From assembly GCA_017458005.1 (NCBI GenBank), contig JAFTGH010000011.1:62001-126000 (forward strand): 64,000 nt of DNA, read 5' to 3'. The stretch's first letter is position 1. The number at the start of each line of letters is the position of its first letter. The position numbers were made by a program, and so were the translations under genes. A model generated the notes under the pieces. That model worked only from the letters and a program-made list of their open reading frames with translations, searched no databases and was not told the origin of the DNA. Shown here in pieces: positions 1 through 16,602 of the stretch. The stretch comes from Prevotella sp. GTDB lineage: Bacteria > Bacteroidota > Bacteroidia > Bacteroidales > Bacteroidaceae.

Positions 1-332
1 CTGGAGATAGGTATTTTCAGATTTCTTATTCAACAAAGATAGGTAAGAGTATGCTGATAGCTCATCCGTATGCCACTATTCTAAATGCTGAGAGTATTGG
101 TGATAATTTCAGTTGTATTCATAGTACCACTCTAGGAGCAACAGACAGAGGGCGTCCTATTATAGGCAATAATGTGAGTTTGGGTGCAAATGTCACGATA
201 ATAGGTCCAGTACATGTCGGTAATAATGTAATTATAGGTGCCGGTAGTGTTGTCGTGAAAGATGTGCCAAGCAATTGTGTGGTGGCAGGGAATCCTGCGA
301 AGGAGATAAGGAGGTATAAAGAACCTTTATAA
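1..332 (+). CDS. Hexapeptide-repeat O-acetyltransferase, 5' truncated by window edge
   Basis: The frame is open to the left edge, so an ATG at 51 is not the real start; about 110 C-terminal codons are visible. They form a left-handed beta-helix made of repeated short motifs (for example IGNNVSLGANVTIIG, then VGNNVIIGAGSVVVKDV) and end in a VAGNPAKEIRR motif. This is typical of serine acetyltransferase-like (CysE/WcaB) enzymes, which move acetyl from acetyl-CoA to an amino acid or sugar. Capsule-locus enzymes of this type acetylate sugars, and the polysaccharide genes at 11634-13942 make that the likelier role. It ends 2 bp before the next gene, so the defence cassette that follows is probably co-transcribed with it. 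The acceptor cannot be read from the sequence. Confidence 0.8.
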   Translation, partial: GDRYFQISYSTKIGKSMLIAHPYATILNAESIGDNFSCIHSTTLGATDRGRPIIGNNVSLGANVTIIGPVHVGNNVIIGAGSVVVKDVPSNCVVAGNPAKEIRRYKEPL

Positions 333-334
333 GA

Positions 335-1045
335 ATGATTTTAGATACAGAGAAATATATTTTTGAAGACTCCCTTGCACGTATTGATAAGATGCTGGGG
401 GTAGCAATGAGCGAACAAAAGCCTTCTATGGAATTACCGTTTATTAATGATATTCCAGTAGACAGAGGATTGTGCAGCTATTGTACCGTCATGACGGTCA
501 GGATGGAGATAGAGAAATGCCCAACAGTAGAGAGATTGAAGGAAATGAAGGTCTTTCAGTCGGAACTGTCGGCTATTCTTTCTTCTCATAACCAATGTGT
601 GGACATTATTGCTCTGGGGAATTACGTAACAGCGGTGTTCAGCACCCCTTTGAAAGTAAATATTGAGGGAGTAATAGATAAGGCGGCTATGGTTAATTCG
701 CTAGCACAAGTGGTGTCGAAAAAGGGAAAGGACATTGGAGGCGGTGCCATTTCTGTATTTATTGGAATACACTACAGTGTAATTGCCATGATGCGTCAGG
801 GACGTATGAACATAAATGAGACAGAACCAAAAGGCGTTGTCTGGATGGGTGACATAATAAAAGAGACCAAGAAATTAGCAGATATGGATGCCCCAGATTA
901 CAGAAACCTGAAAATCACAGAGGTAGTTTATAACAATATGAAGGATACATACCAGAAGTTGTTTCATAAAGAACTATTAGAAGACTATTATGGGGGAGAC
1001 ATTATCAATACAAAAATGAAGAACTGGGTAAATACAAACAGATAG
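335..1045 (+). CDS. Degenerate class III nucleotide-cyclase-fold protein (pseudo-cyclase)
   Basis: A 236-residue protein. Residues about 47-185 follow the class III adenylate/guanylate cyclase layout: first strand (SYCTVMTVRMEIEK), helix, a hairpin at 90-105 where the family has K..GD...AxF and this protein has LGNYVTAVF, a strand at 140-150 (SVFIGIH), and a WMGDII...KKLA segment at 170-182 where the family has GdaVNxAaRL. The two metal-binding aspartates and the transition-state Asn and Arg all appear replaced (GD to GN at 95-96; N and R to K). It is therefore probably a ligand-binding or scaffold protein, not an active cyclase. It lies 2 bp after the acetyltransferase and 5 bp before rdrA. 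The fold call rests on motif reading; a role in RADAR is inferred from position only. Confidence 0.6.
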   Translation: MILDTEKYIFEDSLARIDKMLGVAMSEQKPSMELPFINDIPVDRGLCSYCTVMTVRMEIEKCPTVERLKEMKVFQSELSAILSSHNQCVDIIALGNYVTAVFSTPLKVNIEGVIDKAAMVNSLAQVVSKKGKDIGGGAISVFIGIHYSVIAMMRQGRMNINETEPKGVVWMGDIIKETKKLADMDAPDYRNLKITEVVYNNMKDTYQKLFHKELLEDYYGGDIINTKMKNWVNTNR

Positions 1046-1050
1046 GAGAT

Positions 1051-3516
1051 ATGGGAAAAGTGACATTCAAATTGGAGCGAGACAACAGACCCTTAATAGA
1101 GAAGTTTGACAAGAATACGATGAAAGAGAGATTCTTTCATCGGCAGTATGCTATGGCAATACGTTGTATAGAACGCTATTTGGAGGAAGAGAAGCAAGTC
1201 TCACAAGATAATGAGTTTGAACGCTATACCGATGGTAATAATAATCTATTTGCTTTTGTTGGTGACAGGGGAACAGGAAAAACTTCGTGCATGCTGTCTA
1301 TTGCCAACTCACTGGTGAATAAAAGAGAACATGCCTTTGAACAAGATATTATTAACGAGACGGATTTCTTTACCATCGGACTACTTGATCCATCCTATTT
1401 TGACTCAGAACATGATATTCTGATGCTATTTGTAGCCAAGTTGTATAGCCTGTTTAACGCAAAAGCCAAGGATATCAACCCTGACGTGGACAATTATAGT
1501 AAGAAAATGCAACTGCTGAAGGATTTTTCAGCCACACAGAAACATATACACAACCTGCTTCAAGAAGCGGATAAGTTAGAAGGTGACGAGTTCGAACGGC
1601 TCACCTCATACGCTGCTGCTATTGACTTGAAGAGAGACATTAGCAATTTGATAGATGACTATAGAAAGTTCATAGAAAAACCGAAGGGTGTGATGCTGTT
1701 GATGGTGGATGACATCGATCTGAACACCAGCGAGGCCAGCAGAATGGCAGAACTACTGAGGAAGTACTTTGTGCATCCGCATACAATCGTGCTGATCTCT
1801 GTGAAACTCGACCAACTGTCGTATATCAAGAAGTTGGATTTGGTGAAAGAGTTTGATAAGATACTTCAAAAAGGAATGGAAACTCAGGAGATTGACGAAA
1901 TGGCTGAAAGATATCTATCGAAGTTTATGCCCCAAGAGCATCGAATATTCCTCCCGACACCAGAACTGTACTTTGATGACGAGTTGACAATAGAGTACAA
2001 TGGTAAGCCGAGAAAATTCTGTTCGGTGATGCAAGCCATACCAGAACTGATTTATCAGAAGACCCGCTACTTGTTCTATAACTTTGATGGAGAACCCAGT
2101 TACATCATCCCACGTAACCTGCGAGATCTACGTCAGTTGCTAAAAGTTCTGGCTGAAATGGAGGGCGAATTAGACCACTTTGACCAAGATCTGGCAGATG
2201 ATGTTAAGAAGAGGAACAGGAAGGTATTTCAAAACTATCTCTATGAGGATTGGGTAGTGAACAATTTGGACAACGACACTGCGAAGCAAATCAAGTCGAT
2301 AGTTGAAGCAGAGGGTGCCAATCAGTTAAACAACACAATTATACAGGTGCTACAATATAGATACGAGCAGGATTTAAAATATAGTGGAATTGACGATGTA
2401 GACAATATTATTAGTAACAACAACCAGGCCTTCAATATTTCTATAGGAGACGTGATTGGTCTGCTGAATATATTATCGAATAAGATGGTGAAAACATCGG
2501 ACAAGAAGTTTATCTTCATAGTCAACACCATCCTCTCGATGAAACTATATGAGTATGAGGCAGAACTGAACAATCCTGCTGCGGAAGGAAACCCACAAGA
2601 GGTTATGCCTAACAGAAACATGGATGCGTCGAATAACTACTTCAAACTGATTGGCGGACGGTTGATAAACTCAAACCTGATTGAGTTACTACCTAGAAAA
2701 AAGGAGAACGCACTTTCGCGATCGACGAGAAAAATAAGCAGGAAGAGCGTTGAGGACTTGATACAGATAATCAATAACAGACCAGAGAAAGATTACCGTG
2801 CGTTAGAACTGCTGATGCTTTGTACCTTCCGTACAGTTTCAACGCGTGCAGACGGTACGTTTCGCTCAGAGCGGCGAGTGGTTAGCCGAGACTTCCAAGG
2901 AGGAAGCGACTTCTGGTTTGAGATAGGTTCGTTGTTTAATAATATTCTTGATAAGGATGGCTGTTATCTGCGATTCGCTGACCTTGGAGGGGACTATGAG
3001 GCAGTTGTCAATGCCGTCAAGGAAGGAGGAGATGGAGTGCACACTCTGTACGGTCTTTTAACGCCTGAGGTCTGCAAGCACATGTCGTTCAGGAGTATGG
3101 ATTTGCTGCAATACTTCATCAGCAGTATCGGCAATGTGCATTATACCAATATCGCAGACCCATTCACTGTTATTAGCCATTTCTTAACGAAAGTTGGTGA
3201 GTTTACGTTTACTACCTACAAACCATCCAACGCAGACAACCTAGAAGGTAACAAGACCGAGGTAAGGTTTGATTGTATGAATACAGTTTTCAATTTTGCA
3301 AATGAAGAAGATTTGAAAAATCAATTCAATAGTCTGTTTGGTGATGAGGAAAGTACTGCAGAAACAGAAAGCGGAACAGCCCAAGAGAACCGCGGACAGG
3401 AACGCGCTCAAGATGATCAGGGCGAAATAGGACAGGAACAAAGAGAAGGGGTTCAAGATAATCAAGAGAATGTTGGAGAACACGCTGAAAACCCTTTGGC
3501 AGCGCCTGAACAGTGA
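1051..3516 (+). CDS. rdrA: RADAR AAA+ ATPase RdrA
   Basis: An 821-residue P-loop ATPase. Walker A is GDRGTGKT at 71-78 and Walker B is LLMVDDID at 216-223, followed by a strand reading HTIVLIS (sensor 1 position). The long remainder is helical. The last 50 or so residues are Glu/Gln/Asp-rich and look disordered; their coding sequence overlaps the start of the next gene by 47 bp. In RADAR, RdrA forms a ring that works with the deaminase RdrB to stop phage infection by nucleotide deamination. The call rests on the ATPase with a large second subunit encoded next to it that has intact deaminase motifs, plus family size. An upstream pseudo-cyclase and downstream STAND and TIR genes are not part of the minimal RADAR described so far. 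Confidence 0.82.
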   Translation: MGKVTFKLERDNRPLIEKFDKNTMKERFFHRQYAMAIRCIERYLEEEKQVSQDNEFERYTDGNNNLFAFVGDRGTGKTSCMLSIANSLVNKREHAFEQDIINETDFFTIGLLDPSYFDSEHDILMLFVAKLYSLFNAKAKDINPDVDNYSKKMQLLKDFSATQKHIHNLLQEADKLEGDEFERLTSYAAAIDLKRDISNLIDDYRKFIEKPKGVMLLMVDDIDLNTSEASRMAELLRKYFVHPHTIVLISVKLDQLSYIKKLDLVKEFDKILQKGMETQEIDEMAERYLSKFMPQEHRIFLPTPELYFDDELTIEYNGKPRKFCSVMQAIPELIYQKTRYLFYNFDGEPSYIIPRNLRDLRQLLKVLAEMEGELDHFDQDLADDVKKRNRKVFQNYLYEDWVVNNLDNDTAKQIKSIVEAEGANQLNNTIIQVLQYRYEQDLKYSGIDDVDNIISNNNQAFNISIGDVIGLLNILSNKMVKTSDKKFIFIVNTILSMKLYEYEAELNNPAAEGNPQEVMPNRNMDASNNYFKLIGGRLINSNLIELLPRKKENALSRSTRKISRKSVEDLIQIINNRPEKDYRALELLMLCTFRTVSTRADGTFRSERRVVSRDFQGGSDFWFEIGSLFNNILDKDGCYLRFADLGGDYEAVVNAVKEGGDGVHTLYGLLTPEVCKHMSFRSMDLLQYFISSIGNVHYTNIADPFTVISHFLTKVGEFTFTTYKPSNADNLEGNKTEVRFDCMNTVFNFANEEDLKNQFNSLFGDEESTAETESGTAQENRGQERAQDDQGEIGQEQREGVQDNQENVGEHAENPLAAPEQ

Positions 3517-6010
3517 ACGGATACTCCGTGATTGTCTGACGTGGTCGTGCCATTCCTTATTAGAAATGGCTACAGGAGAGGATTTTGTCTTTCTCTACCG
3601 ACATGATCACCCAGCACTGACACTAGACCAGATCAGAGGTGTAGAAGCGCTATTGCGAACCAACTGGTTGAAAGAGAAGCATAGTCCTTACTACAAATAC
3701 AGTAAAAGGGACTCTCTGTTCAATGTGGTTCTGAGATATGCTGAAGAAAGACTATTTTTAAAGAACGACCATCCAGCGTGTAAATATAATGGTGTCATGG
3801 GATGGCATGAATTGTCCATGCAATTGGGTGAGGATCTTTTTACCACTGCTTTGACGGCCGCTTACGATGCCAAGCAACATCGAGTGAGGACCATGTTTGA
3901 CTGGCATCCATACCTCAGAACAGAGCACCCGGCACTTGAAGAGATTTATAACAGGCCATTGACCGAACTGCATGCCCATCTGAAGGGAACTTCACTAAAC
4001 TTCGATTTAAACTGGCTCAGTCTGATGAATTCAATACAAAACCGAGCCAAGGAGTTTGAGATGTTTGGTAAGAGGCAACACGCGCAAGTTACGGTACAGA
4101 TGGAAGACTATGTGAATGACCTGTATCATCAGGTAATGAAGGCAGCAGCTATCAGACTCTACCTGTTTGCTGAGACACAAGCCCATGCTCAGGATGTAAA
4201 GGATATAGTGTTTACAATATTGCGGACACAAAATCGACTGGAGGTCACCTCCGACAGCATGACGCTACAGGAAAACATAGACAGTTACCGACAAGCATAC
4301 GGGAAACGATATAACAGGTGTGATGATGGCTATGATATACCAGACTATGCCATCGTCGGCAACACTCCGTATAGAGATGGTGATAGCCTTTATTCCGTAT
4401 TATCTGGAGAAAGACGTTTGCTCTATTGGTTGCTGAGAAGATGTTATGAAGGAAAACTAACCCATCAACAAGAAGGATTGTTGACTGCTTATCTTGTCAT
4501 CAAAACCCGACTGAGAATGGAGATGGTTCAGTTGAATGAAGGCGTAGGTTTTGATAATTTCGCAACATACGAGGGAAGAAAGACAGCATTTGTTAAAGAC
4601 GAAACTATCTATGAAAGACTCGTTGCCCAACTGGCTATTGGCAATTTCCTGAAAACAGGTCCCGACAAACGATATATGGAATCTCGAATTGTGCCTAAGG
4701 AAACCGCTGAAGGAGTGCACCGGCAGATAAAAAAGACAGATGACGACGTACATAATCCACAGTTTGATAAAGGCGAAGGTTGGCAGTATCACTATATTTA
4801 CCATTTTATCAAGGCTGACGACAAGACGAAGGAACACTTGCAAGAACTGGTTCCAAGACATCATGCATTGCGAGAAAAGGTTAAGAGACAGGCAAAGGCT
4901 ATCTACAATTATAGGAACTTCAATTTGTTAGAGAAAAGTGATAGGGTCGTTGGTGTTGACGCTGCGAATTCAGAGATTTTAGCACGCCCCGAGGTTTTTG
5001 CACAAGCCTTCCGATACCTGCGGCGGCATTCCATCAATGACACTGTCGTGAACCGCTCCAATGACTTAGGTATGACCTATCATGTAGGTGAAGACTTTAT
5101 GGATGTGGTCGATGGACTTAGGGCATACGATGAGGTCATCAGATACATGCAGTTTGGAGAAGGTGATAGGCTTGGACATGCGCTGGTGTTAGGTGTGGAT
5201 GTTGCAACCTACTACCAAAAACGGAACTATGTTGTAGCCTTGCCACTACAGATGGTTCTTGACAATGTGGCATGGCTGTACCATGAAGGCAAAGACCTTG
5301 GCGACCCGTTTGTGCTGGTGCCACAGTTGGAACGGGAATATGAGTATTATTTCAGGAAGCAGACAGACAACCGACTACCAATATCTTCCATCAATACCTA
5401 TTATCACTCATGGCTATTACGGGGAGACAACCCATTTTGCTATCAGGTTCCAGGAGCGTACCCTGTTCAGGTTGTGAGTGTGGATGAATGGGACCGGAAT
5501 AACCTGGTGACAGGTGATAGCGAAATAGATAAAGCCAGGGACGATGTAGAGGCAAGGAAACTTTACTGTTATTATCATTTCAATCGGAAGATGAAGGAAA
5601 AGGGTAAGACTGTCATAGAATATCCTATAACGGAAGCGTTTGTCAAAACTTTAGAACTCGTCAGAGAGCGGAAACTATGCGATGCAGAAGCCAGACACTT
5701 GGCAATAGAATGTAACCCAACCTCTAACTATAAGATAGGTGAGGTAACGGATTTTGCTGAGCATCCTATTACACGATTCTATAATGAAGGCATAGGAAAA
5801 GATGATAACAATAAACACTATCTGTCAGTGTCCATCAATACCGATGATGCAGGAGTGTTCTCCACTTCGATAGAGCGAGAGTACGCTGTGATGGCTAAGG
5901 CGTTGGAAGAAAAATACTGTAAAATGGAGCAACTGTCGCCTAAACAGATATACGATTGGCTTGACGATGTGAGGATGTTTGGACAACAACAAAGATTTGT
6001 AAAACGATGA
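3470..6010 (+). CDS. rdrB: RADAR adenosine deaminase RdrB
   Basis: An 846-residue protein with the split metal site of adenosine/AMP deaminases: HAH at 168-170 (TELHAHLKG), H538 with catalytic E541 (YHVGED), DRLGH at 566-570, and NTDDAG at 790-795, which gives D792 as metal ligand and D793 as catalytic partner. A roughly 370-residue insert lies between the first two motifs, as expected for the large RdrB family and not for about 330-residue housekeeping adenosine deaminases. RdrB acts with RdrA; published work on the family reports deamination of adenosine in RNA and/or of (d)ATP to the inosine form. The ATG at 3470 lies inside rdrA, which suggests translational coupling. The stop overlaps the next start (ATGA). 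All catalytic residues are present, so activity is likely. Confidence 0.88.
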   Translation: MLENTLKTLWQRLNSERILRDCLTWSCHSLLEMATGEDFVFLYRHDHPALTLDQIRGVEALLRTNWLKEKHSPYYKYSKRDSLFNVVLRYAEERLFLKNDHPACKYNGVMGWHELSMQLGEDLFTTALTAAYDAKQHRVRTMFDWHPYLRTEHPALEEIYNRPLTELHAHLKGTSLNFDLNWLSLMNSIQNRAKEFEMFGKRQHAQVTVQMEDYVNDLYHQVMKAAAIRLYLFAETQAHAQDVKDIVFTILRTQNRLEVTSDSMTLQENIDSYRQAYGKRYNRCDDGYDIPDYAIVGNTPYRDGDSLYSVLSGERRLLYWLLRRCYEGKLTHQQEGLLTAYLVIKTRLRMEMVQLNEGVGFDNFATYEGRKTAFVKDETIYERLVAQLAIGNFLKTGPDKRYMESRIVPKETAEGVHRQIKKTDDDVHNPQFDKGEGWQYHYIYHFIKADDKTKEHLQELVPRHHALREKVKRQAKAIYNYRNFNLLEKSDRVVGVDAANSEILARPEVFAQAFRYLRRHSINDTVVNRSNDLGMTYHVGEDFMDVVDGLRAYDEVIRYMQFGEGDRLGHALVLGVDVATYYQKRNYVVALPLQMVLDNVAWLYHEGKDLGDPFVLVPQLEREYEYYFRKQTDNRLPISSINTYYHSWLLRGDNPFCYQVPGAYPVQVVSVDEWDRNNLVTGDSEIDKARDDVEARKLYCYYHFNRKMKEKGKTVIEYPITEAFVKTLELVRERKLCDAEARHLAIECNPTSNYKIGEVTDFAEHPITRFYNEGIGKDDNNKHYLSVSINTDDAGVFSTSIEREYAVMAKALEEKYCKMEQLSPKQIYDWLDDVRMFGQQQRFVKR

Positions 6011-9000
6011 GCGGAATGACGGAATTTGACATCAATACACTGCAACTATCTTCGAGCCAGCACCTGTTTAAAGGGAAGGTGGCAGTAGACAGGGCTGAGA
6101 CTCACGATATAGTACACTGGATTCTCAGTACGATACCAGCACGTGAAGACCATAAGATATGTCTGTTAACAGGAACGGCAGGTCAGGGGAAAACGGTGGT
6201 ACTTCAGAATCTGCTAAAGGAGATGGAGCAGCATGAGAAGTTCCCTGTTTTCGCCTTGAAAGCAGACCTTGTGGACTTTGACAGCATCGATGCGAATGAC
6301 TTTATTGCACGGTATGAACAGGAGTTCCAAAGTCTTTCTGGATGCGGTTTGTGGCCAGTGTTGGTAATAGACCAAATTGATGCTTTGTCGAAAACGTTGT
6401 CTGTAGACCGCAAGCCAATTAACCTGCTTGATCAGTTGATTAATGCCGTATGCCAGGCGAAAAATGCTTGCGTCATAGTGTCGTGTCGACCATACGACCT
6501 TGATTTTGACCCTGTGTTGAGTAAATACAAATACAAGAAAAAGATAAGTCTTGGGAACCTTAAGGCAGAGGAAGTAAATAGAATTTTACGCGAATTCGGT
6601 ATGCGTGAATATTCCGAGGGCAGTAAAATGCTGTCCTTCCTAAGCGTACCAATTAATCTGGAACTGTTTTTGGAATACGGGCGTGAAGACGACCAGATTA
6701 CAACATTGCAGTCGCTGCTGGATACCCTATGGAGAAAAAAGATATCTGAAGTAGCAGACAAAAAAGCTAATATCACAACCACCTCTTTGATAGAATGCCT
6801 GAATGAAATTACGGCATCGCTAAACAAGTCGTCAAGTCTGGCATGCAGCAGAAAAACTCTCGAAGATCGCTATACAAAGGAATTGTCTTATTTGATAAGT
6901 GAAAATATTCTGACCGATACAGCCAGAAGTGGGTATATCTCTTTTGTCCATCAATCGTTAGCCGACTATATATCGGCTAGGCTATTAGTTACTTCAGGTC
7001 AAACCATGGCGAAACTGCTTGATAGTGAACATCAGGGACTTTACGTCAGAAACCGTGTTAAACAGTATTTCACCTACATACGAGAGGCAGATGAAAATCA
7101 GTATTTGCAGGAGGTGAAGAGAATACTTGTTGACGGAGCCCCTAAATACAGAGTCCATATCAAGATGCTTATACTGACGACAATGGCAGGATTTGAACTG
7201 CCTACCGAAGAAGAGAAACATTTTGTAGGGCAATATGTGTTGACTGATGACACCTATTGCAGCATGTTTATGGAGGCAGTATATAGGAAAGGCTGGTTTG
7301 AATATGTTTCAGGGCATCCTTTTATAAGCAATCAATTGCTAGCAGGAAATGAAAACACCGTTCAGACAGTTAAGTCTATGTGTGAGAACGTGATGATATT
7401 TGACTGCCATTCTGTGGCATCTTTCCTGCTGTCACAAATCAGAGAAGGAGAAACTGCATGGAACCGTAATTGGATGGATGTCGCTGAACGTTTTTCGGAT
7501 ACCAATGGACTGACAAGCCTTATACCCCTTTACGAAAATGCCAAAGGAGACGAGCCTCTTAAATATAACGACTATCTGGAGCGCCTTGCATCAGTAGATT
7601 ATGATTATGTAGAAAAAGTACTCTTAGAGCATATCGGAAAAGAACTGGAAAAACAGATGGCAGAGAAAGATATCGAAGGTTTTGTATTTCGCGTTGTGTA
7701 TCTGGACAGCCAAGCATTTTCGATTTTGGAAAACTTGTTTGATAGCGACAAGAAAAGAACATCAGAGACTTACCTAAAAGCCATCCGACTGATAGACGAT
7801 GTGAGTAAATACGGAAAAGATGACGTATTTCTTCATCAGGAGAGCCATGCATACTTTACCTATAACGACAGCAGTTATTACAACAACCATGAGAAGTTGG
7901 TGATTGACTATTTGGAGTATGCATCAAAGGCTATTGAAGAAGACCCTGACGTTTTCAAAGCAATAGTAAATGAGTGCCTGCACGATGAAAGGTGCATCAT
8001 TTACTATATGGGTCTACGAATGTGCCGGATGAACCTAGGAACATTCAAGACGGAAGCAATGAGTATTCTTACAAAAAAGGAACTCCTTGAAGAACTCGAT
8101 AGCAAATTGTCATACCAGATGGTGCGAATACTAGATGATACATTCCCCCTGATGACAGATGAAGAGAAGAAAAAAGTGCTGGACGTAGTATCGACGGTAG
8201 CCCCACAATGGGAGAAGACACCACTACCTATGTTCCGGGAACATCAGGAACTACCCCTTTACCATATAGGTCGAAGAAAGCAAGAGTATCTGACAGTCAT
8301 ACCTCCAGACTACCTTAAGAGAGAAAATAATGAAGACTGGCACTTCTTGCAGAGAATGGAACGCGAATTAGGCAAGGCAGACGTGCATGAACCATATAAG
8401 ATTTACACTAAGTCGGGCTGGGGCTCTCATAGGCAGGAAACAATGAAACTCATGAAAAAGAAAGACATGCTGAAAGCCTTTAAAAAATATGAGTCGAACT
8501 CGCCTGGTTTTGATGAAAGACCAACGAGACAAGGCGAATGCATGAACTTCCAATCGGTAGTTACAGAAGATCCCAACCAATATATAGATGTTATAGAAGC
8601 AATACTTGAAGACCGAGAAATAAACAGAGAGTATGCAGCCTATGGCATTATCGGTCTGATGAAGGCTGACTATTCTGTAAAGACCATACAACACTTGGCG
8701 GACAGACTTATATCAGAACTGATGGAAGACCTTACATCAGCGGAGAACTATTATCCGATAATGGATGTCCTAAGGGAAATGGACTACTTCATTAAGAGAA
8801 ATGCGGTCAGTGAGACGATGATGGAATTTATGTGTCGTATCGTCAAGGAATATCCAGAAGAAAGCCATAAAGGCGACAATCTAGAGACACGACAGGACGT
8901 ATATAATACTGGTATCAACAGAGCGCGAGGCAATGCCGCTTTCCATTTGATAATGTGCTATAAGATGACAGAATATGGACAACAAATATTTGATGCTCTT

Positions 9001-9831
9001 GAAACCTGCGTAGATGGCAGCCCTGCCACGAAGGGAGCCATTATCTTACAGCAAGCATTGCTCAACCATCTTGATGTTGACAGGAACTTCAAACTATATA
9101 TGAAACTGATGAAGGAAAGAACGCCATCGCTAGTTAGTATACCTCTGGGGCGGCTACATCCGCTGGTTTATTTCATTAACGTCAAGTTTGAAGAATTAAA
9201 ATCATTTTTTATCAGTCTGTATGACGTGCCAGAGTCACATGACACGCTATCGCAACTGTTGTGGATAGCATGGGTGAGAGGAAAGGTTGATGCCAAGAAA
9301 CTGCTACATGACTTGCTGATGCGTTCAGACAAGGCCAAAGAAAGTATTATCCGATACTTTGACAAGGACACAGTGACTAAATTCTTTAAATATGTAAAGC
9401 CTGTAGCAGAGTGGTGTGCTGATAGCGAGGATGAAGAGGTCGGCAAAGTATACGACTACTTTGTTAATGATATGGAGGACTTGAACTGGGAAGATACCCG
9501 TTGGTTTGTCAATACCTATGCAAGCGGCAAGGTCTTTGCTTATGCCGGCAACCAGTTTCTGGAGTTTATGAAAGACAGTGCGGCAGAACATCCCGAAGAT
9601 GTGATGACGTGGATGTGTCGTTTTGCAAAAGCAGAACATAAAGGAGAGAACCGGATGTTTCTTGCATCAAGGACACTTAGTAACCTAGTCGCAGCATATA
9701 ATGCCATCAGGAAGTACGACAAGAGTAATAACCTACTGGAAAAGGCTCTTGATACGATGGACGACCTGATGGCACAGCAGCAAATCAGACGAAGTATGCT
9801 TCATTACCTGTACGAACTTGACAACAATTAA
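6007..9831 (+). CDS. STAND-type P-loop ATPase with long helical sensor region
   Basis: A 1274-residue protein. The ATPase starts almost at once: Walker A GTAGQGKT at 56-63, Walker B VLVIDQID at 118-125, and an arginine-bearing strand VIVSCRPYD at 157-164, followed by a winged-helix-like part. From about 330 to the end it is a long run of helices without catalytic motifs, as in the solenoid sensors of Avs/NACHT-type STAND immune proteins. No nuclease, TIR or protease domain is fused at either end. The next gene encodes a TIR protein, so the effector may act in trans. ATGA overlap with rdrB ties it to the RADAR transcript. Exact STAND subfamily (NACHT, KAP-like or other) is not settled by reading alone. 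Confidence 0.75.
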   Translation: MSGMTEFDINTLQLSSSQHLFKGKVAVDRAETHDIVHWILSTIPAREDHKICLLTGTAGQGKTVVLQNLLKEMEQHEKFPVFALKADLVDFDSIDANDFIARYEQEFQSLSGCGLWPVLVIDQIDALSKTLSVDRKPINLLDQLINAVCQAKNACVIVSCRPYDLDFDPVLSKYKYKKKISLGNLKAEEVNRILREFGMREYSEGSKMLSFLSVPINLELFLEYGREDDQITTLQSLLDTLWRKKISEVADKKANITTTSLIECLNEITASLNKSSSLACSRKTLEDRYTKELSYLISENILTDTARSGYISFVHQSLADYISARLLVTSGQTMAKLLDSEHQGLYVRNRVKQYFTYIREADENQYLQEVKRILVDGAPKYRVHIKMLILTTMAGFELPTEEEKHFVGQYVLTDDTYCSMFMEAVYRKGWFEYVSGHPFISNQLLAGNENTVQTVKSMCENVMIFDCHSVASFLLSQIREGETAWNRNWMDVAERFSDTNGLTSLIPLYENAKGDEPLKYNDYLERLASVDYDYVEKVLLEHIGKELEKQMAEKDIEGFVFRVVYLDSQAFSILENLFDSDKKRTSETYLKAIRLIDDVSKYGKDDVFLHQESHAYFTYNDSSYYNNHEKLVIDYLEYASKAIEEDPDVFKAIVNECLHDERCIIYYMGLRMCRMNLGTFKTEAMSILTKKELLEELDSKLSYQMVRILDDTFPLMTDEEKKKVLDVVSTVAPQWEKTPLPMFREHQELPLYHIGRRKQEYLTVIPPDYLKRENNEDWHFLQRMERELGKADVHEPYKIYTKSGWGSHRQETMKLMKKKDMLKAFKKYESNSPGFDERPTRQGECMNFQSVVTEDPNQYIDVIEAILEDREINREYAAYGIIGLMKADYSVKTIQHLADRLISELMEDLTSAENYYPIMDVLREMDYFIKRNAVSETMMEFMCRIVKEYPEESHKGDNLETRQDVYNTGINRARGNAAFHLIMCYKMTEYGQQIFDALETCVDGSPATKGAIILQQALLNHLDVDRNFKLYMKLMKERTPSLVSIPLGRLHPLVYFINVKFEELKSFFISLYDVPESHDTLSQLLWIAWVRGKVDAKKLLHDLLMRSDKAKESIIRYFDKDTVTKFFKYVKPVAEWCADSEDEEVGKVYDYFVNDMEDLNWEDTRWFVNTYASGKVFAYAGNQFLEFMKDSAAEHPEDVMTWMCRFAKAEHKGENRMFLASRTLSNLVAAYNAIRKYDKSNNLLEKALDTMDDLMAQQQIRRSMLHYLYELDNN

Positions 9832-9835
9832 GGAC

Positions 9836-10996
9836 ATGGATAACCTTATCTCAAGTACCGGCGTCCTCCCTGCGGATCCTTCTGAAGAGAAAAGTTTTTT
9901 ATCTGACGAAGACTGTTTTCTGAGGCTGTTTGATACAAGCACCCACTTGTGCTTCGACAGGCAGTTGAAAGATGTACTTGACAGGTTCGGCAGGAAATAT
10001 TCTAAACGGCAAGTCAGAAACTATAAACTGCTCAGGTTTACTATAAACCCAGGAGAACAGCATTTTCTTAGCAGAATGGTAATAGACATAGCCAAATCTG
10101 TATATAATGACAAGGTACTACGGGAGTTTGCCACTAAATTAGACCTGAGCGACGAGAAGGATGCGTATGATATTTATACAGACTACTTTGAGAAACTGAG
10201 ACGGAAGAATCCGATACTGATAGTGATATCCAATTTCTATGAAGAAGTGAGTGGCGTTACCGACGCAGAATTGGGATTGTTCTGTAAAATGATGGAAACC
10301 TGCGAGAATGTAAGAGTATGGATATGCGGTGAAGACAAAATGGACGAGCAAAGACATTCGGCATATTTTGACTTCTACCAACAATTCGACCCCATACCAC
10401 AAAGTTTCTATGAAGCATTGCAGTCGGGCGAACCACTTCCATACGTGTATTTCTCGTATAATTGGGAAGCGAAATCAAACAATACGGTTGATCAGTTGTG
10501 TGACATCGTTAGGATGAGGAGGATACCCCACCAGAGAGACAAAGAGAATTGTGGATATAGATCGGATATTCATGAGTTTATGAATAGGATAAGAAGAGGG
10601 TATCATGTGGTAATCCTCTTTAGTAAGCCTTATCTTAAGTCGTTCTATTGTATGTATGAACTTGCTGGTATCTTGGAACATCCCGATTATGAAAAGAGAA
10701 TACATCCAATTATTGTAGATCTAACAATTAGAGAGGATAGTTTTGAGAAAGAACTGGAAGATTACTGGAAGACAAAACGGAGCGACAGAATCTATAAAGA
10801 CAGCCTGAAGGACAAAACAGTCAATTATTTCACGCTGAAGCGCAAGACTGAAATTATGGATGACTATATTAGTAAATTGCCCATCATCGTGGATTTTTTG
10901 GCAAGAATTGATGGTAATACTCTTGAAGATATGAAGGAGCAGAATTATGAGACGTTACTCAATGATTTGTCGAACCAGATAAGAGTAAGAATATGA
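9836..10996 (+). CDS. TIR-domain effector protein
   Basis: A 386-residue protein. The ATG at 9836 is preferred over a TTG at 9818 inside the previous gene. The C-terminal half (about 202-340) is a TIR domain: first strand PYVYFSYNW, then RDKENCG (BB-loop region), a helix and strand HVVILFSKPYLKS, then FYCMYEL, whose glutamate (about residue 275) is where TIR NADases place their catalytic Glu. The first 200 residues are unassigned; they contain a strand NPILIVISNFY and may bind the STAND partner. Bacterial TIR effectors typically destroy NAD+ or make cyclic ADP-ribose signals after activation. It sits 4 bp after the STAND ATPase and overlaps the membrane-protein gene (ATGA). Substrate and trigger are unknown. 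Confidence 0.85.
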   Translation: MDNLISSTGVLPADPSEEKSFLSDEDCFLRLFDTSTHLCFDRQLKDVLDRFGRKYSKRQVRNYKLLRFTINPGEQHFLSRMVIDIAKSVYNDKVLREFATKLDLSDEKDAYDIYTDYFEKLRRKNPILIVISNFYEEVSGVTDAELGLFCKMMETCENVRVWICGEDKMDEQRHSAYFDFYQQFDPIPQSFYEALQSGEPLPYVYFSYNWEAKSNNTVDQLCDIVRMRRIPHQRDKENCGYRSDIHEFMNRIRRGYHVVILFSKPYLKSFYCMYELAGILEHPDYEKRIHPIIVDLTIREDSFEKELEDYWKTKRSDRIYKDSLKDKTVNYFTLKRKTEIMDDYISKLPIIVDFLARIDGNTLEDMKEQNYETLLNDLSNQIRVRI

Positions 10997-11628
10997 AGCG
11001 GTGGATGTGGCTGGTTTGGATAATAGTTCCAGTGTTGCCAATCGGTATTAACTGCCTTATGTTGTCAAGCGTGGAAGGTGTTGAAGTGGCTGGCACGACA
11101 GACAATTGGATTGCCTTTTGGGGGAGCTGTGCTGGAGGATGTGTGACGGCACTCATATCGTTTGTTATTCTCTACAGGACTATTGAGTACAATAAGGAAG
11201 AGGTGACAAAAAGACAACAAGAAGCCCATAAGGAAAGGTTACGCACAGAACTGTCTACAAGGTTGGCTCGTCTGAATACAAAACAGTTTACAGTCTATTA
11301 TGAAAGGTTAAGGGAGGGTCAAGACCCGGCTGCGCTCTGTCAGATGTTGGAAGAGACGAGGGTGCAGATAGTCAACGACTTTAGTTCGTTTAAAATACTA
11401 TATACAGGTATTTATGACCATTTCCTTTCATTGTATGAAGCCGTCATTTGGCGGCTTGAAAATCAACTAAGTTGGCTGTCCGATGAATTGAGTCAGATAT
11501 CCCACGAACAATCACCATCCAGAAGTTATATGGTTGAAAAGGTAAAAGGTAATTTTGATAAACTGGCAGCCATTCAACCACAAATTGAAGATTTTTGGAA
11601 GATAGCTTCTAATATGATAAACAAGTAA
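10993..11628 (+). CDS. Small membrane protein with two transmembrane helices and coiled coil
   Basis: A 211-residue protein with hydrophobic helices at about 4-23 and 41-62, then a charged helical region (about 65-110, many Glu/Lys/Arg/Gln) likely to form a coiled coil in the cytoplasm. No catalytic motif is visible. Small membrane proteins of this shape (compare SLATT proteins) often act as membrane-damaging effectors or anchors in defence operons, and SLATT proteins accompany some RADAR loci. This one could be an analogue, but the resemblance is in layout only. It overlaps the TIR gene by 4 bp and is followed after 5 bp by a polysaccharide-type gene, so it marks the right edge of the defence cassette. 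Confidence 0.7.
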   Translation: MKRWMWLVWIIVPVLPIGINCLMLSSVEGVEVAGTTDNWIAFWGSCAGGCVTALISFVILYRTIEYNKEEVTKRQQEAHKERLRTELSTRLARLNTKQFTVYYERLREGQDPAALCQMLEETRVQIVNDFSSFKILYTGIYDHFLSLYEAVIWRLENQLSWLSDELSQISHEQSPSRSYMVEKVKGNFDKLAAIQPQIEDFWKIASNMINK

Positions 11629-11633
11629 CTCCA

Positions 11634-12794
11634 ATGAATCGGTTTGAATTTTTGCAAGAACTGTTGCAGGTAGCATTTGGACGACGAGATACATTGAGCC
11701 AGGTGCCGTCGGAGAAAGAGTGGTATGCGGTGCTTGAGGAGGCTCAGCGGCAGGCGGTGGCAGGCATATGCCTTGCGGGCATAGACAGGTTAATGGCTCA
11801 AGGTTCTTCGACGAGCGAAGCGGCTAATCCGAGTGCACGGCTCACGGTTGCAATGCCATTCCAGTTGAAGATGGAGTGGATAGGACAGTCGGAGCAAATT
11901 AAGCAGCAGAACGTAAATGTGAACGGAGTGCTGAAAGAACTGGCATCGCTGCTGAATAAGAATAGCGTGAGATATGCTGTGGTGAAAGGACAAACGATAG
12001 CGAGCGTTTACTCGCGGTTAATGGTTCAAGGTGAAGGGTTAACGGGTGACTTAGGATTGTTGAGACAGGCAGGGGATATCGACTTTTATGTAGAAGCAAA
12101 GGACTTTGAAAGGACAAAGCAACTGATACAGGAGGCATGGGGAGTGACTTATGAAGAAATAGAAGGGCATCACCATGTGGAGTTCGAATACAAGGATGTT
12201 CCGCTGGAGCAACATCATAAATTGATAAAACTATACAATAAGAAAAAGGAGGAATATTGGGATGAACTGATGCGCGATGCTTTTGGAGTTCAGGAAATAG
12301 AGGGGGTGAAAGTGTCGGTGCTGACGCCTACGCTACATTCGCTGTATATTTTTCTGCATTTGTATCATCATTTGCTGGAATTAGGCGTTGGACTGCGACA
12401 GTTTTGTGACTGGGCGGTGATGCTGCATGCTTGCAAGGCGGATATAGACCACGAGGCGATACGAACGTACCTGAAAGTGTTGGGTATGGAAAAGGCATAC
12501 AGGGCTTGCGGAGCAATATTGGTGGAAAAGTTAGGACTGCCTGCGGACGATTTTACGTATGAGCTGAACGACTCGGACAGGAAATACGGACGAAAAGTGA
12601 TGGGTGTGGTGGAGTACCGTGGAAACATGGGACACTACAATCTGAAAGGTGGATATGAAGGAATGTGGCACAACGTGGAGGCCACAGGGATTAAGATAGC
12701 ACATTTTATGAAGTTTATGTCGCTGGCACCAGGCTTTTCTTGCAGGTGGCTAAAGGCAGAGATGAAAAGAAAAATAACAAAGAAGTTGAAATGA
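11634..12794 (+). CDS. Uncharacterised nucleotidyltransferase family protein (NTP_transf_5-like)
   Basis: A 386-residue protein with the features of the NTP_transf_5 family: AVVKGQ near residue 117 and AGDIDFYV near 145, where the Asp-x-Asp pair matches the metal site of the nucleotidyltransferase fold, followed by a helical part. Such genes are common inside Bacteroidales capsule loci, but their reaction is not known. It begins 5 bp after the membrane-protein gene and overlaps the glycosyltransferase start by 4 bp (ATGA), so it belongs with the polysaccharide genes on the right side of the defence cassette. A MNT/AbiEii antitoxin-toxin role is less likely given its length and context. Confidence 0.75.
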   Translation: MNRFEFLQELLQVAFGRRDTLSQVPSEKEWYAVLEEAQRQAVAGICLAGIDRLMAQGSSTSEAANPSARLTVAMPFQLKMEWIGQSEQIKQQNVNVNGVLKELASLLNKNSVRYAVVKGQTIASVYSRLMVQGEGLTGDLGLLRQAGDIDFYVEAKDFERTKQLIQEAWGVTYEEIEGHHHVEFEYKDVPLEQHHKLIKLYNKKKEEYWDELMRDAFGVQEIEGVKVSVLTPTLHSLYIFLHLYHHLLELGVGLRQFCDWAVMLHACKADIDHEAIRTYLKVLGMEKAYRACGAILVEKLGLPADDFTYELNDSDRKYGRKVMGVVEYRGNMGHYNLKGGYEGMWHNVEATGIKIAHFMKFMSLAPGFSCRWLKAEMKRKITKKLK

Positions 12795-13942
12795 AGAAAC
12801 TATTTATAGTGGTGAATCACGACTGGTTCTTCTTGTCGCATCGCCAGGCGATTGGCGTAGCTGCAAAAGAAGCAGGGTGGGATGTTACCATCGTGACATG
12901 TGATACTGGAAAATCTGAGGATATCAGGGCATTAGGACTGAAAACCATCAATCTGCCAATCAATGCAACGGGCATGAATCCTGTGGAGGAGATGAAGACA
13001 TTCTGGTTCCTTTTTGAGTTATATACACGAGAGAAACCAGATGTGGTGCATCATGTAGGTCTGAAAACCATCCTTTGGGGAGGATTAGCAGCAAAACTGA
13101 CAGGTATCAAGGGCGTGGTGAATGCTGTGAGTGGACTGGGCGTGATGTTCTCTGGTGAGAAGCAGTCACTGGTGGCAAAGGGCATACTGGCTGTGCTTAG
13201 ATTCTCGCACAGCAGAAAAGGTGTGCGTGTTATTTTCCAGAACCATGAGGATGAAGACCTTTTCTTGAAGAACCATATCACGCAACAGGAAGATAGTGTG
13301 TTTATCAAAGGATCAGGTGTTGACTTGAACGAGTTTACTTATGCTCCCGATCCAGACACAACACCATTGAGAGTGATGTTTACAGCCCGTATGGTTCGGG
13401 AAAAGGGTGTCGTGGTATTGACAGAGGCTGCAGAGATGCTACGGAAAGAATACGAAGGTAAAGTGGTTTTCTTGCTTTGTGGAAAGTTATCGGATAATCC
13501 CAAAGCGATGCAGAAGGAGGAACTAGAAGCACTATGTGATGGGAAATATATCCAGTGGTTGGGGCATAGAACGGATGTGAAAGACTTGCTCCGGCAGTGC
13601 CACATCGTGGCATTCCCAAGTTACTATAGGGAAGGGGTGCCTAAGTCGCTGATTGAAGCCTGTGCTACAGGAAGGCCCATAATTACCACCAATTCTATTG
13701 GTTGTAAGGATACTGTGGAAGATGGCGTTAATGGTTATCTCATACCTATTAAGGATAGTCAGTCTTTGGCAGAGAAGCTGAAAGTTTTGATAAATGACAA
13801 GGTGCTGAGGGAAAAGATGGGGCGTGCTTCAAGAGTAAAAGCAGAAAAGGAATTCTCGCTTAATGAAGTTGTGAAGAAGCATTTGGAATGCTATGCCGAG
13901 TTGGATAGTGAAAAGGATTTGTTTCAACAATCGTCTAAATAA
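12791..13942 (+). CDS. Glycosyltransferase family 4 (GT-B fold)
   Basis: A 383-residue protein. The ATG at 12791 is chosen because it opens the classical GT-B N-terminus (KKLFIVVNHDWFFLSHR) and makes an ATGA overlap with the gene before. The N-terminal half has the DVVHHVGLKT motif; the C-terminal half has FTARMVREKGV, the HRTDVKDLL segment and the donor-binding loop EGVPKSLIEACATGRPII, in which the EGVPKSLIEA stretch carries the paired acidic residues of GT4 enzymes. These enzymes add a sugar from a nucleotide-sugar to a lipid-linked or growing glycan at the cytoplasmic membrane. It is the last gene of the first transcript. Confidence 0.88.
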   Translation: MKKLFIVVNHDWFFLSHRQAIGVAAKEAGWDVTIVTCDTGKSEDIRALGLKTINLPINATGMNPVEEMKTFWFLFELYTREKPDVVHHVGLKTILWGGLAAKLTGIKGVVNAVSGLGVMFSGEKQSLVAKGILAVLRFSHSRKGVRVIFQNHEDEDLFLKNHITQQEDSVFIKGSGVDLNEFTYAPDPDTTPLRVMFTARMVREKGVVVLTEAAEMLRKEYEGKVVFLLCGKLSDNPKAMQKEELEALCDGKYIQWLGHRTDVKDLLRQCHIVAFPSYYREGVPKSLIEACATGRPIITTNSIGCKDTVEDGVNGYLIPIKDSQSLAEKLKVLINDKVLREKMGRASRVKAEKEFSLNEVVKKHLECYAELDSEKDLFQQSSK

Positions 13943-13948
13943 ATATGA

Positions 13949-13978
13949 TTGCGACATAAGTCTTTTATGATATTTTTG
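13949..13978 (+). promoter_or_regulatory. Bacteroidetes-type promoter for the DUF262-HEPN pair
   Basis: TTG at 13949-13951, 19-bp spacer, TATTTTTG at 13971-13978, matching the TTG / TAnnTTTG consensus. The expected start near 13984 gives a leader of about 148 nt before the ATG at 14132, long enough for regulation. The leader itself shows no clear structure. Confidence 0.55.
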
Positions 13979-14131
13979 TCAAAAGTGTGGTTATGAGGCG
14001 CAAAAGTGAATCATTAGAAATAGCAGGATGATAAATCAGCATAGATGACAAGAGGCAACAGCACTACGCTTTCTGAGGGAATAATGTAAAAAGTAAGCAT
14101 ATAATTTCCATATTTATAAAGAATAAAGAAG

Positions 14132-15286
14132 ATGAATGAAGAATCATTGAAAGAAGAATCCCTTCTTGATGATACAATGGGAGAGATGAAGTTTGATGAC
14201 GATTATGACGAGGACTCAAAAATACCTTATGAGATTCCAAAGGAAGTCCGCAAAATAACTACTCAGGCTTACGATAAGAGCGTGTCTGATATTGTAAGGA
14301 TGATAGAAGACAAGGATATTCGCTTGGATCCAGATTATCAACGCAATTATGTCTGGGACAATAAGAAGGCTTCTATGCTCATTGAGTCAATCATTTTAAA
14401 TGTTCCCATCCCCGTTATTTATGTTTCTCAGGAAGAAGATGATTCGTGGTCTGTCATTGATGGATTGCAGAGACTCTCATCATTAAAGAGGTTCTTTGAT
14501 GGGAAATTTAAACTTAGTGGTTTGGAAATTTTGTCTGATTTAAATAAGAGTGACATTACGAATCTAAACCCAAAGGCTCTTCGAATGCTGAAGAATGGTT
14601 TACTGCGTGTCATCATGATTACCCATGATTCTAATGAGGAAATCAAATATGATGTGTTTATGCGACTCAACACTGGTTCTGTTCATCTTACCGAGCAAGA
14701 GTTGAGAAACTGTCTTTATAGAGGGGCATTAAATAAATTTCTGAAAGAAGTTGTCCAAAATCAGAAATGGTTAGCCTTGATGGGGTTGAAAGAACCGCAT
14801 AAACGTATGGCTGACAGGGAAATGGTCTTGAGATTCTTGGCAATCTGGAAAAATTGGGATAGCGAGAAAGGTGTTCTAAACGGTTACAAAGGAAGAATGA
14901 AATCCTTCTTAAATGCGTTTATGAATGAACATAAGGAAATTAAGGCTCATGAATCTAATGAGTGGAAACGGCTATTTGAAGAGACGGTTGAGAAAGTCTA
15001 TCAGGTCTATGGCGAATATGCTTTTAAGCGACAAGGACTTGACGGAATGAGGGAAAAGACGATTAATCGTGCTATCATTGATGTCATTATGCTTTCTGCA
15101 ACCCAACATTCAATGGATGAATTGATGGCAAATAAAGATAGAATGGTTCAGCGATTCTTGGAAATGACGAACAATGATGTGTATTTCCGTAATAGTATAA
15201 AGATAGGAACATCTGATACCAAGGTAATTACTTTCAGATTGTCCACTTGGTGCCGTGAGGTGGATCGTATGATAGCAGGGGACTGA
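14132..15286 (+). CDS. DUF262 (ParB/GmrS-N-like) domain protein
   Basis: A 384-residue protein with an acidic first 35 residues, then a DUF262 domain: PDYQRNYVWD at 67-76, and VIDGLQRLSSL at 108-118 where the family has DGQQR (here Q to L). DUF262 proteins share the ParB/Srx fold and hydrolyse nucleotides; members include the GmrSD type IV restriction enzymes and BrxU. No HNH (DUF1524) nuclease domain follows, so it is not a complete GmrSD. The second gene, one base downstream, encodes a HEPN protein that could supply the effector activity. It has its own promoter and is separate from the transcript before it. A defence role is inferred from family and pairing. Confidence 0.82.
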   Translation: MNEESLKEESLLDDTMGEMKFDDDYDEDSKIPYEIPKEVRKITTQAYDKSVSDIVRMIEDKDIRLDPDYQRNYVWDNKKASMLIESIILNVPIPVIYVSQEEDDSWSVIDGLQRLSSLKRFFDGKFKLSGLEILSDLNKSDITNLNPKALRMLKNGLLRVIMITHDSNEEIKYDVFMRLNTGSVHLTEQELRNCLYRGALNKFLKEVVQNQKWLALMGLKEPHKRMADREMVLRFLAIWKNWDSEKGVLNGYKGRMKSFLNAFMNEHKEIKAHESNEWKRLFEETVEKVYQVYGEYAFKRQGLDGMREKTINRAIIDVIMLSATQHSMDELMANKDRMVQRFLEMTNNDVYFRNSIKIGTSDTKVITFRLSTWCREVDRMIAGD

Positions 15287-15287
15287 T

Positions 15288-15929
15288 ATGGATAGCATAG
15301 ACCATTTGCGTGAGAGTATGGGGGAGATAGATACCATCTTATCATATGCATCCCACAATACTGCAAATATTGAGAAATACCAGATGTTTAACAAAATCGC
15401 CATTGTATTGCTTTCCACGAAATTCGAGGTGTTCATAGAGGAGTTTATAGAGGAACATAGCATGAAGACTATACAAGGGCATACAAATGCTACACTTCCC
15501 CTTACTTTGAAAAACGCATATATAGATACTGCTGTCGATAAGACTGCAAACGTGAAGAACAGGACAGAAAAGAATAACTATCTCCAATCCTTACTTAAAC
15601 TGATGGGAAGTGATGGAGCGAGTATATCGAGTATTGCCAATATAAGACCTTCTATTAAATTTAACTACGGTAAGCATGGGCAGAAAGAAATTGAAGCGAT
15701 ATTCGACAGACATGGTATGGGAGTCTTTATTAAGACAGCACAACCTCAGACCTGTCTGGCTATGATTAATTCGCTGATTGCTATTCGTAACAACGTGATA
15801 CACCAAGATGCAAGCCCTGGACTTACCCATCAAACAATTAAAGATCACAAAGATAATGTCATGTCCTTTGTTTCTTTGATAGAATCGGATGTAAATGCCA
15901 ACAAATTGGCGTATTATAATGAGGTGTGA
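15288..15929 (+). CDS. HEPN-domain protein (MAE_28990-like), partner of DUF262
   Basis: A 213-residue, mostly helical protein with the HEPN catalytic signature R-x4-H as RNNVIH at 167-172 (AIRNNVIHQDA). HEPN proteins with this motif are usually metal-independent RNases. The helical N-terminus (TKFEVFIEEFIEEH) fits the MAE_28990/MAE_18760 HEPN group, which is known to sit next to DUF262 genes. It starts 1 bp after the DUF262 stop. The stop codon is directly followed by the first codons of a broken IS982 transposase, so an IS event shaped its 3' end; whether the C-terminus is native cannot be told. Confidence 0.82.
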   Translation: MDSIDHLRESMGEIDTILSYASHNTANIEKYQMFNKIAIVLLSTKFEVFIEEFIEEHSMKTIQGHTNATLPLTLKNAYIDTAVDKTANVKNRTEKNNYLQSLLKLMGSDGASISSIANIRPSIKFNYGKHGQKEIEAIFDRHGMGVFIKTAQPQTCLAMINSLIAIRNNVIHQDASPGLTHQTIKDHKDNVMSFVSLIESDVNANKLAYYNEV

Positions 15930-16602
15930 GTGACTATTACCGAGGACAAAGTTACTGAAATTTTCTGTATGGCGGATGATTTTTGCCGTTTTTTTGATGC
16001 AATGATGGAAAATATACTCTCAGAGGCCCCAAGAAGAGGAAATATCATCGTGAAGGTACGTTATCCAAGGCTGAGGTGATGGTTATCATCATCCTCTTTC
16101 ACAATTCCGGCTATCGCTGCCTGAAGCATTTCTATGTGGAGCATGTTTCGAAGCACCTGCGTCACTTGTTCCCAGAACTTGTTTCCTACAACCGTTTTGT
16201 GGAGCAGGAGAAAGATGTTGCCATTCCTCTTGCCCTGTTCATCAAGAAGGTGTTGCTTGGCAAATGTACTGGCATCAGTTTCGTGGATAGCACGCCGCTG
16301 AGGGTCTGCAAGAACCAGCGCATCCACATCCACAAGACTTTCAAGGGGATTGCGCAAAGAGGCAAATGCTCCATGGGATGGTTCTTTGGATTCAAACTCC
16401 ACCTTATCTGTAACGAGAAAGGCGAGTTGCTCAGTCTCATGATAACTCCTGGAGACATTGATGACCGCAAGCCGCACGACACAGATCATTCGATAACTTT
16501 ATGGTCAATCTGTTGGGCGCACTGGCAGCATATTGCTTCTTCCCAAAGAAACCATGCATAGCATGCGAAAGGGTTATAGACAACCAATTAGCACTATTCT
16601 GA
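15930..16602 (+). pseudogene. IS982-family transposase remnant
   Basis: Three blocks read as an IS982 transposase: N-terminus (TITEDKVTEIFCMADDFCRFF...) in one frame from 15930; then, after a probable single-A deletion near 16010, another frame with RKYHREGTLSKAEVM and the DDE-region motif FVDSTPLRVCKNQRIH (about 16280-16330); then a C-terminal block (FMVNLLGALAAYCFFPKKPC...QLALF, stop at 16600) in a third alignment after an internal deletion of roughly 100 codons. The left end of the element is missing, since the transposase begins right at the HEPN stop codon. It cannot make a working enzyme. Confidence 0.85.

Follow-up and report, generated by a model that had tools for sequence, protein, structure and literature searches.

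A probable RADAR variant with a catalytically empty PycC homologue, beside a STAND-TIR pair, in a putative exopolysaccharide operon of Prevotella

Gene content of the locus

The window analysed here is a stretch of 64,000 nucleotides from Prevotella sp. (GenBank assembly GCA_017458005.1, contig JAFTGH010000011.1, positions 62,001 to 126,000), the source genome of which comprises 3.05 Mb in 66 contigs. It carries a run of six genes, among them rdrA and rdrB of the RADAR defence system, which are preceded by a homologue of the Pycsar cyclase PycC (hereafter CYC) and followed by genes for a STAND ATPase, a TIR protein and a membrane protein. We read this run as a defence cassette with two or more independent systems, among them a CYC-rdrA-rdrB variant of RADAR and a STAND-TIR pair, within an exopolysaccharide (EPS) operon, and assign to this reading a probability of about 0.68. 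The six genes are:

335-1045, + strand: CYC, PycC-like protein of 236 residues; open reading frame (ORF) call, PADLOC PycC match and alignments; adjoins rdrA in four further species
1051-3516, + strand: RdrA, AAA+/KAP ATPase of 821 residues; Walker A and Walker B intact; profile match to the solved RdrA 8fnt
3470-6010, + strand: RdrB, adenosine deaminase of 846 residues; H168, H170, H538, E541 and H570 conserved; profile match to the solved RdrB 8fnv
6007-9831, + strand: STAND/NACHT ATPase of 1274 residues; read as half of a separate STAND-TIR pair, outside RADAR
9836-10996, + strand: TIR protein of 386 residues, counted from the ATG; TIR domain in the C-terminal half
10993-11628, + strand: membrane protein of 211 residues; N-terminus related to larger putative phage abortive infection proteins

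From CYC to the membrane gene the junctions measure +5, -47, -4, +4 and -4 bases, the fourth becoming -14 if the TIR gene starts at TTG 9818 rather than at ATG 9836, which is the more likely start. The largest gap within the run is 5 bases, rdrA and rdrB overlap by 47 bases, and the junction between rdrB and the STAND gene is an ATGA overlap. A first-pass annotation of the region had described six genes at 335-11628 with ATGA or near-zero junctions, and this description is borne out by the ORFs and repeated in L016, a locus of the metagenome-assembled genome Prevotella sp. RGIG4438. L016 is 99.2% identical to the window across positions 165-15938 and carries the same six genes, all open and of equal length, which makes an assembly accident unlikely; the nucleotide differences number 0 in CYC, 13 in RdrA, 15 in RdrB, 18 in STAND, 2 in TIR and 5 in the membrane protein gene.

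RdrA and RdrB

The Walker A (GDRGTGKT) and Walker B (LLMVDDID) motifs are both present in RdrA. In RdrB the motifs HAHLKG, YHVGEDF, RLGHAL and INTDDAG correspond to the zinc-binding histidine tetrad and catalytic glutamate of E. coli RdrB, the roles of which are described in PMC9994260, and H168, H170, H538, E541 and H570 are invariant in the RdrB alignment. The initial statement that the ATPase and deaminase motifs are intact is thereby upheld. Five-sequence profiles, in which the window proteins are included, match the solved RADAR chains 8fnt (RdrA, E 3.7e-32) and 8fnv (RdrB, E 2e-69). On the NCBIfam RdrB equivalog model the window RdrB reaches 175 bits against a cut-off of 800, which is a threshold for naming and no test of function.

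According to PMC9994260, RdrB converts ATP to ITP and RdrA docks on RdrB, while the trigger of RADAR is stated there to be unknown. By homology, the window RdrB would deaminate ATP and dATP to ITP and dITP, with RdrA as its AAA+ partner. RADAR has been described in stand-alone, Csx27-associated and SLATT-associated forms (accessible portions of PMC7699616 and PMC11676413). The window resembles these in having an RdrA AAA+ protein and an RdrB deaminase with their motifs, encoded by adjacent genes and matching solved chains, but carries as its third gene a PycC homologue that lies upstream and is catalytically empty, instead of SLATT or Csx27, unlike the forms set out in those portions. No RADAR with a cyclase was found in the literature searched, which left out preprints, most subscription papers and the original RADAR papers besides PMC9994260; papers mentioning RdrB, RADAR and a cyclase together treat them, in the parts available, as separate systems. 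Searches of phage records gave no match to RdrB, and seven plasmids carry an RdrB. On an Aureibacter plasmid, rdrA-rdrB is followed by a SLATT gene (L096:12723-13430), a known RADAR form.

A PycC homologue without its catalytic residues

CYC matches the PADLOC PycC model PDLC02368 at 3.2e-31, and the homology is full-length. The window protein has R56 and N96 at the positions of the two metal aspartates and K176 at that of the catalytic asparagine; an earlier remark that the cyclase fold is catalytically empty is confirmed by these replacements. At the three positions (first aspartate, second aspartate, asparagine) the CYCs of the RADAR loci read R/N/K in the window, N/K/D in L018, D/S/E in L019, R/D/Q in L021 and D/N/T in L030. 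Both metal aspartates together are found in none of the five, and neither is the asparagine, while all seven aligned PycC proteins from outside RADAR (7/7) retain both metal aspartates, a lysine and the asparagine. The roles of the metal aspartates in PycC are given in PMC11224242. A loss that is general yet uneven would be expected if catalysis had been abandoned and the site had then drifted, once or several times.

The resemblance to Pycsar lies in a full-length PycC homologue, and the difference in an incomplete catalytic set (5/5), the lack of an adjacent effector and the AAA+ and deaminase partners in its stead. Among plasmids, nine records hold PycC relatives of CYC (the best with 27% identity over 97% of the length), five of which were fetched and aligned. 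An annotated Pycsar effector adjoins the plasmid PycC in M. marinum, Paenarthrobacter and Curtobacterium, the neighbour in Anoxybacillus matches PycTM below the cut-off, and in Priestia no Pycsar-effector neighbour was seen. An intact PycC with a PycTM partner likewise occurs at L119, from the same order as the window, and the single CYC relative in IMG/VR, an intact PycC on contig L131, has a PycTM partner just below the cut-off. As a control, PycTM (PF18967) was recognised in 6/6 partners of non-RADAR PycCs, four of them above the curated cut-off. The membrane and TIR proteins of the window match neither PF18967 nor any other Pycsar effector model, other kinds of effector remaining possible, and hhalign gives a probability of 1.9% for the membrane protein family against PycTM-like effectors. 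A Pycsar hybrid with the membrane protein in the role of PycTM was rejected on these two grounds.

Recurrence of CYC-rdrA-rdrB

A total of 436 RdrB relatives were found among GTDB species genomes and the best 80 were compared; fractions of 80 thus refer to the nearest relatives, and genes in these loci were matched with single phmmer queries at E 1e-4, which diverged copies may escape. CYC is present in 5/80 loci, namely L016 (with the window's allele), L018, L019 (Prevotella communis), L021 and L030, and always directly upstream of rdrA. These loci add four further Bacteroidales species, and the CYC-rdrA junctions, including that of the window, range from -68 to +10 bases (longest-ORF starts). 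A six-frame search of the 80 loci with a CYC profile yielded no additional CYC. As a genomic unit, CYC-rdrA-rdrB is well supported in five species.

What follows rdrB varies among all four relatives. In L018 a type I methylase gene overlaps rdrB and is followed by a specificity subunit and a PtuA-like ATPase; L019 has DUF2806 and AIPR/AbiU-like genes, L021 polysaccharide genes, and L030 a DUF6016 gene and an AAA_21 ATPase.

Identity between the five loci amounts to 36-43% for RdrB in 9/10 pairs and to 21-33% for CYC, the exception in both cases being L019-L030 with 71% and 53%, respectively. Distances of CYC and RdrB correlate with r 0.95, a value reached by 1/120 relabellings (the true one), those of CYC and RdrA with r 0.92 (8/120), and those of RdrA and RdrB with r 0.97 (3/120). 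A CYC profile matched three of 301 family genomes at E 1e-4 (G000, G620 and G468), all with RdrB; the last two have scores equal to those of L019 and L030 and seem to represent the same loci. Among 384 genomes of the order, searched at E 1e-3, the window is the sole full-length match, and the 13 others are partial, at E 6e-11 or weaker, one of them (L119) having been aligned.

The RdrB tree has 82 rows, with support from the Shimodaira-Hasegawa-like approximate likelihood-ratio test (SH-aLRT) only and with several long branches; copies (L010 of L057, L011 of L065), partial sequences (L013, L015) and L022, in which rdrB is split over two frames, were left out. The CYC loci fall in a 14-row clade (support 91, below the 95 mark) together with L033, L024, L020 and six RdrB sequences without an rdrA match. 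Within this clade CYC is present in 5/5 loci in which rdrA is preceded by more than 100 bases, L024 and L020 being cut; just outside it, L017 and L023 carry rdrAB without CYC. In ten loci (L024, L033, L036, L043, L052, L065, L068, L069, L070 and L073) fewer than 400 bases precede rdrA, and CYC would not be fully visible. No insertion of at least 8 columns separates RdrA sequences with CYC from those without it (5 vs 6 sequences).

RdrB without RdrA

An RdrA match exists in 71/80 loci, and the nine others comprise seven of the type described in this section (six in the tree and L022) and two cut contigs, L020 and L095, which start inside the gene preceding rdrB. RdrB without an rdrA match was found in L028:4950-12832 (Phocaeicola vulgatus ATCC 8482), L022, L025, L029, L031, L032, L061 and L158, in each of which a small gene follows, with a HIRAN match below the cut-off in L028. 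Six of these RdrB-HIRAN sequences group together in the RdrB tree with support 100, and this clade lacks CYC as well as rdrA where there is enough sequence to judge; the absence of both is less sure in L025 and L061, because fewer than 500 bases are readable before rdrB.

RdrB-HIRAN loci with enough contig have genes for an M42 peptidase, a radical S-adenosylmethionine (SAM) protein and an SNF2 helicase nearby, and viperin models match the second of these proteins over its radical SAM core. The same three genes also lie beside CYC-rdrA-rdrB in L019 (1807-6673) and L030 (10451-13030 onward) and in L020 (6068 onward), which is cut before rdrB; the module thus accompanies both forms of RdrB. At E 1e-40 the radical SAM gene is found in 8/271 family genomes. 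Of the five closer genes (below 1e-130), two adjoin CYC-rdrAB, two adjoin rdrB-HIRAN and one (G395) lies on a cut contig with no rdrB in view; the other three are distant, with no rdrB in the fetched stretch. The idea that the radical SAM gene marks a chromosomal site throughout the genus was dropped after 0/20 genus genomes matched; the later family search showed more distant forms in the genus. The rdrB-HIRAN loci are possibly a separate RdrB-based system.

The STAND-TIR pair and the membrane protein

The STAND protein has a NACHT/AAA match and a weak match to the Avs4 model (4e-13), and its ATPase part matches the solved chain 9n00, named only as an AAA family ATPase, at E 7e-21. No effector domain was recognised in its 1274 residues, Pfam at E 0.1 giving ATPase-type domains. 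It is thus similar to Avs proteins in being a NACHT-type ATPase with a long C-terminal part, but differs from them in that it lacks a recognised effector domain and is followed by a separate TIR gene, in the window as well as in L102 and L103. The TIR protein (TIR_2 match, 2.1e-7) resembles TIR NADase effectors in its TIR domain and its invariant glutamate, E281 of the CMYE motif in the numbering from the TTG (3/3), which is presumably the catalytic glutamate of TIR domains.

Relatives of STAND at E 1e-10 occur in 6/301 family genomes including that of the window, and only G520 is full-length besides the latter; a search of 72,556 plasmid records at E 1e-5 gave 12, and the S. copri record alone among them reaches a query coverage of 80%. 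In both full-length relatives, the S. copri plasmid (L102) and G520 (L103), a TIR gene follows, and the fetched stretches contain no rdrA, rdrB, CYC or membrane gene. The G520 genome gave no RdrB match, none of the seven plasmids with an RdrB is the S. copri one, and the S. copri pair lies downstream of a Gabija pair. In G579, one of four partial STAND matches, RdrA-RdrB lies about 57 kb from the STAND gene. Around rdrB, the STAND, TIR and membrane genes are absent from 79/80 loci as far as the contigs reach (less than 3 kb is readable after rdrB in 12/80), with L016 as the sole exception. In analogy to known STAND and TIR systems, STAND would most likely sense a phage and the separate TIR protein would act by consuming nicotinamide adenine dinucleotide (NAD).

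The membrane protein has no convincing family match. Over residues 6-187 it is similar (21% identity, 86% covered) to the N-terminal region of a plasmid-encoded Enterococcus protein, the putAbiC domain of which lies outside the similar part; the window protein differs from putAbiC proteins in being short and in having no putAbiC domain match of its own. Weak relatives at E 1e-4, within residues 1-137, occur in 11 other genomes of the 301 family genomes, and none of these 11 has an RdrB match. The membrane gene may be regarded as an abortive-infection-type gene, which we assign to neither system.

Possible roles of CYC and alternative readings

We propose that CYC is a Pycsar cyclase homologue that would have lost catalysis and been retained as a third, non-catalytic subunit. 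CYC accompanies rdrA, and in the neighbouring clade, where rdrA is absent, CYC is absent too; on this distribution it probably regulates RdrA. It would most likely restrain RdrA or pass on an infection cue, by way of the old nucleotide pocket or the dimer surface, and a non-catalytic CYC dimer might serve as the sensor for a nucleotide or phage protein. More tentatively, the dead cyclase could be the infection sensor or safety catch of RADAR, which binds a nucleotide or phage protein at the former active site and gates RdrA; we consider this specific form possible rather than probable. A dead immune enzyme that stays with rdrA over deep divergence is a concrete candidate for the RADAR switch. 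If the proposal is true, CYC supplies the trigger for RADAR, with the enzyme of one defence turned into the switch of another, and a Pycsar enzyme reused as a RADAR subunit would show defences swapping parts.

Several observations weigh against the two-system reading and the role given to CYC. CYC is found in only 5/80 loci, which implies that most RADARs manage without it; L033, in the same clade, shows no CYC end within the 82 bases available upstream of rdrA, and G579, from the genus of the window, has RdrA-RdrB at a contig end with no CYC match. The distance correlation is mostly carried by the single close pair L019-L030. The catalytic loss is uneven from locus to locus, the first aspartate being retained in 2/5 CYCs (L019, L030) and the second in 1/5 (L021), which leaves an altered chemistry possible. 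The independence of STAND-TIR is based on two full-length relatives.

Alternatively, CYC could be a decoy, that is a mimic of the Pycsar cyclase which is bound by a phage anti-defence protein and reports this binding to RdrA. A dead copy of a defence enzyme beside a defence ATPase would be the anatomy of such a guard, and the catalytic residues are gone while other positions of the PycC family remain alignable over the full length. Anti-Pycsar proteins are not known to act on the cyclase itself. Those of PMC9117128 are nucleases acting on the cyclic nucleotide, and we regard the decoy as unlikely. CYC could also still be active with an altered chemistry, producing a cyclic nucleotide or another signal that triggers RADAR in a Pycsar-RADAR hybrid. 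The full-length PycC homology, the first aspartate and a lysine in L019 and L030, and the second aspartate in L021 speak for it, but no CYC has both aspartates or the asparagine and the window's membrane and TIR proteins resemble no Pycsar effector model, which makes such activity very unlikely.

The first-pass annotation had proposed a single six-gene system, with deamination first and NAD depletion as a second layer. Its tight junctions throughout and the same arrangement in a closely related genome agree with this, but the same junction style reaches the flanking genes and joins rdrB to the type I methylase in L018. Six-gene order recurs only in the near-identical L016 among the 80 loci compared, as far as their contigs reach, rdrB otherwise occurring without the other three genes, and STAND-TIR stands without rdrAB in 2/2 full-length relatives, small as these numbers are; both findings are of the kind that the first-pass annotation had itself named as refuting its proposal. 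We have therefore rejected the six-gene unit, which appears highly improbable; of the suggestion that RADAR here has extra genes, the part concerning CYC stands, with CYC-rdrA-rdrB in four further species, and that concerning STAND, TIR and the membrane protein does not. Equally improbable is that CYC is a passenger, a decayed Pycsar cyclase beside rdrA by chance: although its catalytic residues are gone and no Pycsar effector adjoins it, CYC is open, full-length and in the same position in five species whose CYCs are mostly 21-33% identical, and it does not differ at all between two genomes that show 2 to 18 differences in each of the other five genes, and a decaying gene is unlikely to remain open over such divergence.

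Surroundings in the EPS operon

From the types of gene around them, the six genes read as embedded in an EPS operon. The near-zero junctions extend past them on both sides; the flanking genes are:

3-332, + strand: hexapeptide acetyltransferase, 3' part; last upstream EPS gene, 2 bases before CYC
11634-12794, + strand: NTP_transf_5 nucleotidyltransferase; first downstream gene, 5 bases after the membrane gene
12740-13942, + strand: glycosyltransferase, ORF from TTG

As these junctions are as tight as the internal ones, tight spacing is no evidence for one six-gene machine. The genes upstream of the acetyltransferase are likewise on the + strand and encode glycosyltransferases, an acyltransferase and an enzyme of epimerase type. 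The upstream EPS genes of L016 differ from those of the window, up to position 6694 of L016, and identity begins at window base 165, inside the acetyltransferase gene, which suggests exchange of EPS genes by recombination beside a shared defence cassette in two near-identical strains. Polysaccharide-type genes (DegT aminotransferase, Polysacc_synt_2) also adjoin CYC-rdrAB in L018 and L021, and the STAND-TIR pair of L103 (6549-15470) is close to a DegT aminotransferase and an NTP_transf_5-like gene. EPS operons may serve as landing sites for defence genes in the family of the window.

The cassette would be expressed by read-through from the EPS operon. Bacteroidales-type promoters follow the consensus TTTG-N16-24-TAnnTTTG, which has no exact match on either strand of window 1-25,880 and none in the 20 kb upstream (L117; 1.6 expected by chance), although these negatives show little, because exact matches alone were counted; further along the window there are seven, against 2.4 expected. 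A promoter of the cassette's own was dropped as a candidate on this basis.

Beyond the glycosyltransferase gene, window 14132-15286 encodes a GmrSD_N/DUF262 protein (PADLOC NsnA model, 3.2e-92), and 1 base after it a RiboL-PSP-HEPN protein is encoded at 15288-15929; the two are likely another defence pair adjoining the EPS genes.

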